45,174 nt of DNA from Candidatus Eiseniibacteriota bacterium (lineage in GTDB: Bacteria; Eisenbacteria; RBG-16-71-46; SZUA-252): contig VBOR01000063.1 of NCBI GenBank assembly GCA_005893165.1, positions 3,807-48,980 of the forward strand, in the 5' to 3' direction. Below the pieces are notes generated by a model, which saw only the letters and a list, made by a program, of their open reading frames with translations, was not told the DNA's origin and made no database searches. Shown one piece after another: positions 32,445 through 35,316 of the stretch (positions are counted from its first letter, which is position 1; each line of letters opens with the position of its first letter). The position numbers were made by a program, and so were the translations under genes.

Positions 32445-33142
32445 GCCGGCGTATCCGCCCGCTTCATGACGCCCACGGAGGGACGGGACTGCGCGTCCGC
32501 TGGCAGCCTCCGGATTTCCCCCTGCGCGAGGCGGCCGAGGTCGTCCTGCGCGAATCGATCCGGGAGCTGGGCCTCTCCGACGTCGTGCGCGACGTGCACG
32601 TTCACGTGGATCTCCGGAACCGGGACGACCACGCCTACATCGAGTGGAACACGCACGATCACCGCGCCGCGCGCCTCTCCTTCGCGCTGGGGAATTTCGT
32701 GACTCCCTCCCGGCGGCGCGCATGGGCGCGCACCTGGGGCCGCCGCGCCGGGACCCCTCCGGTCCTGCCGCGGCAGTTCTCGGGCAAGTGTTTCGCCGAG
32801 GCGTGCCTTCACGAGCTCTTCCACCTCCGTGACGACCACGAGGCGGGCGTGGACCTGGCAGCCCACCCCGAGCAGGATCGCGAAGCCTTGAACGAGCTCT
32901 GGAACGTCTGGATCGACGGACGTCTTCACCGCCGCGGGCTGCCCGCCATGACCCGCGGGGAGCGCCACCGCGTGTTCGTGCGCACGCTCGCGCACTATCC
33001 GCGCTTTGCGCGCCGCGGGGAGCGGATCTTCAACGCGCTCTGGTCCGCGGACCACCTGGGACCCAAAGAGCTTCGGGCGTTTCTCGCCGAGATCCAGAGC
33101 CCGCCCGAAGCCGGCAGGCGGGTGAAGCGCCGGACGCGATGA
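32441..33142 (+). CDS. Predicted zincin-like protein with HEXXH motif
   Basis: A 233-residue protein with no family I can name. It contains ACLHELFHLRDDHEAGVD: His124, Glu125 and His128 form HEXXH, and a further His133 or Glu134 could be the third metal ligand. The spacing (four residues to the next His) differs from the HEXXHXXGXXH metzincin pattern. The rest is charged and helical, with LREAAEVVLRESIRELGLSDVVRDVHVHVDL at the N-terminus and ALNELWNVWIDGRLHRRG beyond the motif. No signal peptide and no membrane helix, so a cytosolic location is expected. The end is very basic (RRVKRRTR). It lies between a membrane protein and a PP2C phosphatase with four-base overlaps on both sides. Protease activity is inference from the motif only. 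Confidence 0.78.
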   Translation: MSRRIRPLHDAHGGTGLRVRWQPPDFPLREAAEVVLRESIRELGLSDVVRDVHVHVDLRNRDDHAYIEWNTHDHRAARLSFALGNFVTPSRRRAWARTWGRRAGTPPVLPRQFSGKCFAEACLHELFHLRDDHEAGVDLAAHPEQDREALNELWNVWIDGRLHRRGLPAMTRGERHRVFVRTLAHYPRFARRGERIFNALWSADHLGPKELRAFLAEIQSPPEAGRRVKRRTR

Positions 33143-34902
33143 ACGAGCGCTCCACGCTCGCCCAGAGCGCCACGAGCCAGGAAGAGCGACTCCAGGCCCT
33201 CGTTCGGGCTTCCCGCGAGCTCGCGCTCCTGAAGCGCGACGAGCTGGCGCGCCGCGCGCGCGATCTCTTCCTCCGCTCGAGCACCTTCTCCGAATTCTCG
33301 CTCTGGGTCCTGGATCCCAGGACCGAGGTGCTCTATCCCTGGACGCTCTGCAATACGCCCGTGATGGGACGGCGCCCGCGTCTCACGGTTGGGCAGGGGA
33401 TCGCGGGGGTCGCGTCCGCGGAGGAGCAGCCTTCGTTTCATCCCACGGTGGCGGAGACGCAGTATCTTCCCGAGGAGTGGGGTGGGCGCCCGCGGAACAT
33501 GATCCAGGGGGTGCTGACGCTGCCGCTCCGCCGCGCGGGGGAGCCTCTGGGAGTCGTCGTGCTCACGAAGCTCGACTCCACACGGCCCCCCGACGAGGAC
33601 ATCTCCTTCCTGCGCGAGCTCTCGATCCAGCTCGCGATCGCGATCGGCAATGCCCGCACGCATTCCGAGGCCATGCGGGAGAAGGTCCAGAACCATCTGC
33701 TCCTGGAGCTGGGCACCAAGATCTCGGTCAGCCTGGACACGAATCAGCTCCTGGAGCAGATCCTCGACCTCGTGTTCCAGGTCGTGCGCTACGACGCCGC
33801 GGGAATCTACCTCGTGGACAAGGACACCCAATGGGTCAACCAGCAGGCGATCCGGGGCTACGAGGCGAATCGGGAGGAGGCGGTCCGCTTGAAAGTAGGG
33901 CGCGGGCTGATCGGGTGGGTCGCGAAGACCGGCCGCTCGGTGATCGTGCCGGACGTCCGGCGCGACGACCGCTACGTGAACGCGAGGCCCCAGACGCGTT
34001 CGGAGATGGTGGCGCCGCTGCGCGCGGGGACCGAGGTGATCGGCGCCTTCAATCTCGAGTCCGACGAGCCCGACGCCTACGAGCCCGAGGATCTGGAATT
34101 GCTGATGACGTTCGCTTCTCAGGCCGCGGTCGCGATCGAGCGCACCCGCCTCCACGCCGAGGTGCTCGAGACGCGGAGGCTGGAGGAGGAGCTCTCGATC
34201 GGGCAGCGGATCCAGCGCACCTTCCTGCCCGAGCGCGATCCCAAGGTGCCGAACTTCGACATCGCGGGGGCGAACTATTCGTCGGGCCTGGTGGGCGGGG
34301 ATTACTACGACTACGTGAGGATCACGGAAGGGCACCTGGGGATCGTGGTCGCGGACGTCTCGGGGAAGGGGATTCCGGCCGCGCTCATCATGGCGGCCTT
34401 CCGCGCCTCGCTCATCGCCGAGGTCCGGAACAACTACGCCATCCGGACCGTATTCGCGAAGGTGAACAAGCTCCTCTGGGAGAGCATCGAGATCGACCGG
34501 TTCGTGACCGCGATCTACGGGGTGCTCGACATCCAGGGGCGGAAGTACACGTACGTGAATGCGGGTCACAACGCGGGATTGCTGTATCGCGCCGCGACGG
34601 ATTCATTCGAGACGCTGGATTCCACGGGGCCGCTGCTGGGGACATTGGAGACGGCGATGTTCAAGGAGCGGCAGGTGGAGATCCGCCCCGGGGACGTCCT
34701 GACGCTCTACACGGATGGGATCACGGAGGCGATGAACCCCGAGAAGGAGCTGTTCGGGGAGGAGCGGCTGCGGGATGTGATCCGGTCTCGGAAGGGGGGT
34801 ACGGCGTCAGAGATTGTTCGCGGGATCCGGGAGACCGTCGGTGCCTATGCCGGCGGCGAGCTGGACGACGACCTGACGCTGGTGCTGATCAAGGGGCAGT
34901 AG
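33139..34902 (+). CDS. GAF-GAF-PP2C protein phosphatase (RsbU/SpoIIE type)
   Basis: A 587-residue cytosolic protein. Two GAF sensor domains occupy about residues 20-170 (VMGRRPRLTVGQGIAGVAS ... LGVVVLTKLDS) and 190-340 (YDAAGIYLVDKD ... VGRGLIGWVAKTGRSVIVPDVRRDDRYV ... EVIGAFNLESDEPDAYEPEDLELL). A SpoIIE-type PP2C domain follows at about 370-587, with metal-binding GGDYYDYVRI, VADVSGKGIPAALIMAAFRASL, YVNAGHNAGLLY, TLYTDGITEAMNPEKELFG and LDDDLTLVLIK. Such enzymes dephosphorylate anti-sigma-factor antagonists and thereby release sigma factors after the GAF domains sense a ligand. No anti-sigma factor or antagonist gene is adjacent. Starts at ATG in a four-base overlap with the HEXXH gene. Confidence 0.92.
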   Translation: MNERSTLAQSATSQEERLQALVRASRELALLKRDELARRARDLFLRSSTFSEFSLWVLDPRTEVLYPWTLCNTPVMGRRPRLTVGQGIAGVASAEEQPSFHPTVAETQYLPEEWGGRPRNMIQGVLTLPLRRAGEPLGVVVLTKLDSTRPPDEDISFLRELSIQLAIAIGNARTHSEAMREKVQNHLLLELGTKISVSLDTNQLLEQILDLVFQVVRYDAAGIYLVDKDTQWVNQQAIRGYEANREEAVRLKVGRGLIGWVAKTGRSVIVPDVRRDDRYVNARPQTRSEMVAPLRAGTEVIGAFNLESDEPDAYEPEDLELLMTFASQAAVAIERTRLHAEVLETRRLEEELSIGQRIQRTFLPERDPKVPNFDIAGANYSSGLVGGDYYDYVRITEGHLGIVVADVSGKGIPAALIMAAFRASLIAEVRNNYAIRTVFAKVNKLLWESIEIDRFVTAIYGVLDIQGRKYTYVNAGHNAGLLYRAATDSFETLDSTGPLLGTLETAMFKERQVEIRPGDVLTLYTDGITEAMNPEKELFGEERLRDVIRSRKGGTASEIVRGIRETVGAYAGGELDDDLTLVLIKGQ

Positions 34903-34945: not shown

Positions 34946-34979
34946 AAAAAAGAAGTGGCGGAGCTTTCGCCCCGCCACT
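34946..34979 (-). terminator. Rho-independent terminator of the minus-strand RNA
   Basis: An 11-bp stem (34954-34964 with 34969-34979) closed by a GAAA tetraloop on the minus strand, followed by TCTTTTTT (34953-34946). One position pairs only as G-U when read on the minus strand and is an A-C mismatch on the plus strand, and the T run is also on the minus side, so the direction is clear. It may also act on plus-strand transcription from the PP2C gene, but without a T run there. Confidence 0.88.
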
Positions 34980-35176
34980 CCGATGCGGAAAAGGTTCCCC
35001 GCAAAGACCGTATCCCGACGACTTGCATAAGGCCTTGGGCAACCCACCGGCGAACGCCGGGTCAAGCCACCAGGTCGCGAATCACAGGGAACCTATACCC
35101 TGTTTTGCCGTACCCTTTAGACGCCTCGAGTGGTAAAAAGTTCCGAGGCCTTCCATAGGTTGGATGGAGAGTTACA
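34946..35176 (-). ncRNA. Candidate structured small RNA, possibly 6S-like
   Basis: A minus-strand transcript of about 231 bases bounded by a near-consensus promoter (35183-35212) and an intrinsic terminator (34946-34979). No ORF of coding character is present. Internal structure: a hairpin near the 5' end (35123-35128 with 35144-35149), a long-range helix (35087-35093 with 34993-34999) enclosing about 87 bases, and an apical GC hairpin (35047-35051 with 35056-35060, loop 35052-35055). A competing hairpin (35084-35089 with 35098-35103) uses three bases of the long-range helix, so two folds exclude each other. Length, a long rod with a central open region and a competing hairpin are traits of 6S RNA, but I cannot confirm the family; tmRNA, RNase P and SRP RNA signatures are not seen. 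Confidence 0.6.
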
Positions 35177-35182
35177 TTAACA

Positions 35183-35212
35183 AGTATACATAAAGCACTG
35201 GCAGTTTGTCAA
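35183..35212 (-). promoter_or_regulatory. Strong sigma70-type promoter for the minus-strand RNA
   Basis: On the minus strand TTGACA (35212-35207, perfect -35) and TATACT (35188-35183) are separated by 18 bases. The -10 box overlaps the palindrome gtatac (35184-35189), so a plus-strand -10 (tataca, 35185-35190) for tRNA-Leu could share the same site; the plus-strand -35 (ttggat, 35160-35165) is weaker. In a GC-rich genome this is the best promoter in the window. Confidence 0.75.
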
Positions 35213-35227
35213 TTACAAAGTTAGCGT

Positions 35228-35316
35228 GCCGGAGTGGTGGAACTGGCAGACGCGCCGGACTCAAAATCCGGTGGAGCTCAAACTCCGTGGGGGTTCAAGT
35301 CCCCCCTCCGGCACCA
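35228..35316 (+). tRNA. tRNA-Leu(CAA)
   Basis: An 89-base class II tRNA. The 7-bp acceptor stem pairs gccggag (35228-35234) with ctccggc (35306-35312), followed by A and an encoded CCA (35314-35316). The anticodon stem ccgga/tccgg holds a seven-base loop with CAA at 35262-35264, which reads the UUG leucine codon. A long variable arm (gtggagctcaaactccg) and the T-arm (gggggttcaagtccccc) are present. The 3' half, from the anticodon loop on, is repeated at 37037-37095, marking it as the target of a site-specific integration. Confidence 0.97.

Follow-up and report, generated by a model that had tools for sequence, protein, structure and literature searches.

We have analysed a short RNA gene on the minus strand of a 45,174-nt stretch of DNA (the window), which comes from a Candidatus Eiseniibacteriota draft genome of 2.5 Mb in 143 contigs. 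Upstream of the RNA gene, and divergent from it, lies a tRNA-Leu(CAA) gene (35228-35313); downstream is a plus-strand gene for a GAF-SpoIIE phosphatase (33139-34902), whose end is convergent with the RNA gene. RsbU-like GAF-SpoIIE phosphatases are of a type that often acts in sigma-factor partner switching. An earlier note on this DNA had described here a minus-strand TTGACA-N18-TATACT promoter, an 11-bp GAAA-capped terminator stem and a structured RNA that would be new if it were not 6S. The promoter is present as described and is the sole sigma-70-type site between 34800 and 35400 (11/12 matches; shuffled sequences have 0.2 sites on average), and it is kept in all seven family genomes, with a hexamer identity of 87-92% against 48% in the spacer. 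The terminator stem, its GAAA loop and the T-run were also borne out, but the length has to be corrected, as the terminator caller gives 13 pairs, nine of them G-C; a terminator-like site alone is not rare (0.8 on average in shuffles). The folding energy of a 236-nt stretch is -96.3 kcal/mol (z = -3.2), none of 200 shuffles being as stable, and the ORFs overlapping the locus look mechanical. Promoter, terminator, fold and the homologues described below give good support to a new stand-alone structured RNA, whose predicted start was set 7 nt past the -10 box (position 35176).

Table. Features of the RNA locus (positions in the window), from the promoter to the terminator
Feature	Position	Strand	Basis or remark
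Sigma-70 -35 box TTGACA	35207..35212	minus	TTGAC[AT] in 7/7 family genomes
Sigma-70 -10 box TATACT, 18-nt spacer	35183..35188	minus	[TC]ATA[AC]T in 7/7 family genomes
Proposed transcript, ~231 nt	34946..35176	minus	Predicted from promoter and terminator, fold and conservation
Bipartite box, first half, GGAACTTTT	35136..35144	minus	Identical in 7/7 family genomes
Bipartite box, second half, GTCTAA	35117..35122	minus	Invariant in 7/7 family genomes
Competing hairpin ACAGGG/CCCUGU	35084..35103	minus	Seen only on folding the 5' part by itself
Conserved core 'type A', 104-nt rod	34991..35094	minus	Covariance models R1 and R2
P1 closing stem, 5' strand AGGUUCCCUGUGA (6S-like CCCUG)	35082..35094	minus	Fold, alignment
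Internal-loop strand UUCG, conserved	35078..35081	minus	Faces GUCU at 35005-35008
GGCUUGACCC	35059..35068	minus	Apparent counterpart of type B motif GGCUGAUCCC; alignments judged by eye
Apical hairpin CCGGC-GUUC-GCCGG	35047..35060	minus	Fold, alignment
P1 closing stem, 3' strand (GCGGGGAACCU side; 6S-like ACG-N8-GGGG)	34992..35004	minus	Fold, alignment
Intrinsic terminator stem, GAAA loop	34952..34981	minus	Followed by U-run 34946-34951 (TTTTTT)

BLASTN recovered homologues of this RNA in three genomes of the same genus and in three others from its family (G004, G006 and G007), with a marginal match in G009, which belongs to a different family; a covariance model added G005. Ten Candidatus Eisenbacteria MAGs, and one MAG titled Latescibacterota, came up in a pattern scan of named genomes; no plasmid homologues of the window RNA were found. 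Promoter, core and terminator position recur across the related Candidatus Eisenbacteria genomes, and at the type A loci the hexamers and the core are conserved while the spacers drift. A tRNA-Leu gene is found near the type A locus in most of the homologous genomes, and the downstream sequence suggests that the phosphatase gene has also been kept beside type A in relatives. Pair changes on both sides of the type A stem between genomes give modest support to the structure.

Covariance models, that of 6S RNA (RF00013) included, have now been run on the locus, and no Rfam family matches the window RNA. The only gathering-level match within the window is the tRNA-Leu, RF00013 gives no match to the RNA even at E<=10, and the other type A and type B loci yield tRNAs only. 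SRP RNA was rejected because the SRP RNA of this genome is located elsewhere, and other Rfam families because none reaches gathering level at the locus. The RF00013 search gave, in four genomes, weak matches of ~103 nt that represent a second short RNA, which we call type B. Two covariance models were used to follow both types: R1, built from seven type A cores only, and R2, whose training set held one type A sequence (L062). Of the 47 Eisenbacteria genomes, R2 matches 36 at E<=0.05 and 33 at E<=1e-4; as a rule there is one type B per genome, with a type A in addition in the window's family and G009. The type B core measures ~105 nt, and its structure is strongly supported by 97 doubly changed cells against 35 in shuffled alignments and by a covariation score of 0.313, compared with 0.086 at most when slid. 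In a survey of 385 genomes, type B-like RNAs occur in further phyla, and two of these phyla carry type B in 17/20 and 7/7 genomes.

From its sequence, the type B promoter looks like a sigma-54-type promoter. In the 160 nt that precede type B, the pattern GGYMY-N5-YTGC is found at 23/29 Eisenbacteria loci (control windows 0.65%) and at 19/26 loci from other phyla (control 1.2%). A variant with A at the fourth base and any base before TGC, settled on after some of these 26 loci had been inspected, precedes all of them (control 0.9%). Type B loci are related, so these counts are not independent and binomial p-values overstate their independence. The distance from site to core varies from ~30 to 120 nt. 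A sigma-54 gene was found in 45/47 Eisenbacteria genomes, and none was seen in the incomplete genome of the window. Sigma-54-like sites of the form GGCAC-N5-xTGC precede type B in at least three phyla (L064-L093, L152-L175).

Some further loci found in these searches are of interest in themselves. Two genomes of family f9 carry rods of ~120 nt, L038 (G017:C103) and L039 (G024:C137), with the closing stem of types A and B and downstream of a TTGACA; they were found by R1 and missed by R2, and RF00013 gave no 6S in either genome. In family f8 (L065-L077) a longer GGGCCCC...GGGGCCC domain lies 3' of the type B core and may form a terminator or extend the structure at the 3' end. G010 has a second R2 match (L151, G010:C315:14221-14326), a rod of 106 nt that shares the closing stem and lacks the CUGAUCC motif. 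A weak R1 match in G022 is a short G+C-rich hairpin and was treated as chance.

As judged by these models, type A is a divergent paralogue of type B that lacks its sigma-54-like promoter. The R1 matches in distant f6 and f8 genomes (G019, G030, G032, G037 and G038) are the loci that R2 calls type B, and R2 scores the window RNA at 25.4 bits (E=3.4e-4), although, with L062 in its training set, R2 is not a wholly independent test of type A. We speak of a paralogue and not of a type B member because the sigma-54-like site is found at none of the 8 type A loci; it is also absent from 18 6S loci. Type B is in turn related to 6S. RF00013 scores it at 26-34 bits (maximum 34.1), below the gathering score of 46.4, in an alignment where the closing stem is matched and 95 apical positions are deleted, with 15 nt left. 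Reciprocally, of 18 canonical 6S loci tested with R2, ten were detected, mostly end to end; the best scored 27.9 bits (E=1e-6), and seven of the ten had E<0.01. Two R2 matches in other phyla were confirmed by Rfam as canonical 6S. The closing stem common to 6S and type B reads CCCUG / ACG-N8-GGGG, with an invariant U-G wobble. Its identity between 6S and type B is 19-30/35, and most type B stems are far above the shuffled level (11.4 +/- 2.7, maximum 22). Between type A and 6S the identity is 21-23/35 in the window's family, at or just above that shuffled maximum, and 12/35 in G009, a null-level value obtained where fixed-spacing extraction misaligned the 6S. R1 found none of the 6S genes and RF00013 misses type A, so the tie of type A to 6S runs via type B.

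The usual view of 6S RNA is of a ~160-200-nt regulator of the housekeeping polymerase. Its central bubble imitates an open promoter, its closing stem contacts the beta and beta' subunits as a duplex that mimics downstream DNA, and its apical arm holds a -35-like region. The cores described here, of 104-118 nt, are without that arm, and the predicted folds of types A and B have small internal loops only and no large open central bubble.

The locus is best explained as a non-coding RNA gene that stands alone and is driven by sigma-70, with a 6S-derived core that probably acts by binding RNA polymerase. Types A and B keep the 6S closing stem and lack most of the apical -35-like arm; the RNA would dock on the polymerase through this stem and tune transcription as 6S and other polymerase-associated RNAs do, and the siblings seem to have been placed under different promoters, sigma-54-type for B and sigma-70 for A. 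Polymerase inhibition and product-RNA synthesis could follow, and the two RNAs may be expressed at different times. Binding by a reduced 6S scaffold is proposed because the shared stem corresponds to the part of 6S with the duplex that contacts beta and beta', and because truncated forms of 6S-1 RNA (78-82 nt) that have lost the -35 arm continue to bind polymerase, about ten-fold more weakly, template pRNA and are released (PMC8876501). That the window RNA should be the organism's own 6S, a likeness raised in the earlier note on account of size, rod shape and a competing hairpin, cannot be maintained: rod, closing-stem similarity, promoter and terminator would fit, but RF00013 is silent on the RNA, the core is short and has no large bubble, and a full-length 6S already lies on another contig of this genome (G000:C41:15802-15983), with 82.4 bits against the gathering score. 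The resemblance was nonetheless meaningful, in that it pointed to a short family related to 6S. We consider it rather unlikely that the RNA is an ordinary sRNA working by base pairing or protein binding, its closing stem having converged with that of 6S on a stable G+C-rich helix. The missing central bubble, the mutual silence of RF00013 with type A and of R1 with 6S, and the strong folding frequent among bacterial sRNAs would all agree with this; against it, the 6S and type B models detect each other in both directions and in the same register, and the wobble and the ACG-N8-GGGG spacing are shared with 6S.

According to the earlier note, the internal helix 34993-34999/35087-35093 and a hairpin at 35084-35089/35098-35103 exclude each other in a switch-like way. 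The helix is real, with pairs changing on both sides between genomes. Most family members, like the window, have segments that could pair as the hairpin, and in some of them it does form if the 5' part is folded by itself. In the full-length window RNA, though, it has a probability of ~0.02 whereas P1 has 0.98 (0.71-1.0 across all seven genomes); it shrinks to four pairs or fewer in some relatives, being weak in G001 and G005, and is absent from G009 of the other family, and the partners of the 5' part folded alone differ among genomes. A two-state switch, unsupported at equilibrium, is therefore very improbable, and the modelled hairpin would be transient at best. More room is left for a second promoter. 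The box GGAACTTTT-N13-GTCTAA, with a spacer just 46% identical across the seven type A loci, resembles the layout of ECF/RpoE-type promoters, and the sigma-E promoter of E. coli is laid out as GAACTT-N16-TCTAA. It is thus possible, if doubtful, that the RNA comes also or mainly from an internal ECF-sigma promoter GGAACTT-N15-GTCTAA, as a stress-induced transcript of ~165 nt starting just upstream of the core. Both boxes are invariant in 7/7 genomes around a variable spacer; yet the exact pattern occurs once per genome, solely at the type A locus, one-mismatch matches do not in total exceed a reversed-pattern control, and, in two genomes, no such site was found within 700 nt upstream of any of 26 sigma-70 region 2 genes. 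An ECF regulon around this box was accordingly rejected, there being no other sites and no sigma gene sharing it. The box may instead be a leader RNA element, since GGAACUU can pair with AAGUUCC of P1.

What would polymerase-binding RNAs of this size mean? The type A gene was previously uncatalogued, and together with type B it hints at an undescribed branch of RNAs acting on RNA polymerase. We regard as evenly balanced a wider proposal, in which short, sigma-54-controlled, 6S-derived RNAs without the -35-like arm regulate the polymerase in several phyla under conditions signalled by sigma-54 activators, and the window RNA arose by duplication in one lineage and came under the control of sigma-70, possibly also of an ECF sigma factor. 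Most Eisenbacteria have retained type B, in the genomes compared alongside an ordinary 6S, and almost all genomes of two other phyla carry it as well. A half-size relative of 6S with its own apparent sigma-54 promoter suggests that there may be dedicated versions of polymerase-binding RNAs for different sigma programmes. It also offers a natural test of which parts of 6S matter, as evolution has removed the -35 arm and preserved the closing stem. Among open-licence papers we found no description of a short 6S relative linked to sigma-54.

Polymerase-associated RNAs besides 6S exist (PMC11077062). Ms1, CoRP and scr0792 are structured, like the RNAs described here, and have been shown to associate with the polymerase, and scr0792 is also short (~85 nt); they are actinobacterial and their binding was measured, whereas that of types A and B is proposed from the shared stem. 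The Myxococcus Pxr sRNA (PMC5684412) is also a regulatory RNA of a bacterium, and sigma-54 is mentioned in papers on it, but it is set apart by its description, three separate predicted stem-loops, unlike the 6S-like rod of types A and B. To 6S itself (SsrS, RF00013) the likeness lies in the closing stem in the same register, in the stand-alone gene and in the reciprocal model matches with type B. The differences are a core of ~105 instead of ~180 nt, with neither the apical arm nor a predicted large central bubble, scores below Rfam gathering, presence beside a canonical 6S in the genomes compared, and the promoters, sigma-54-like in B and sigma-70 with an extra box in A. In Bacillus subtilis, too, the genome carries more than a single 6S-type RNA, namely 6S-1 and 6S-2, which differ in expression; both of these are full-length 6S RNAs, whereas types A and B are short forms that have diverged strongly.
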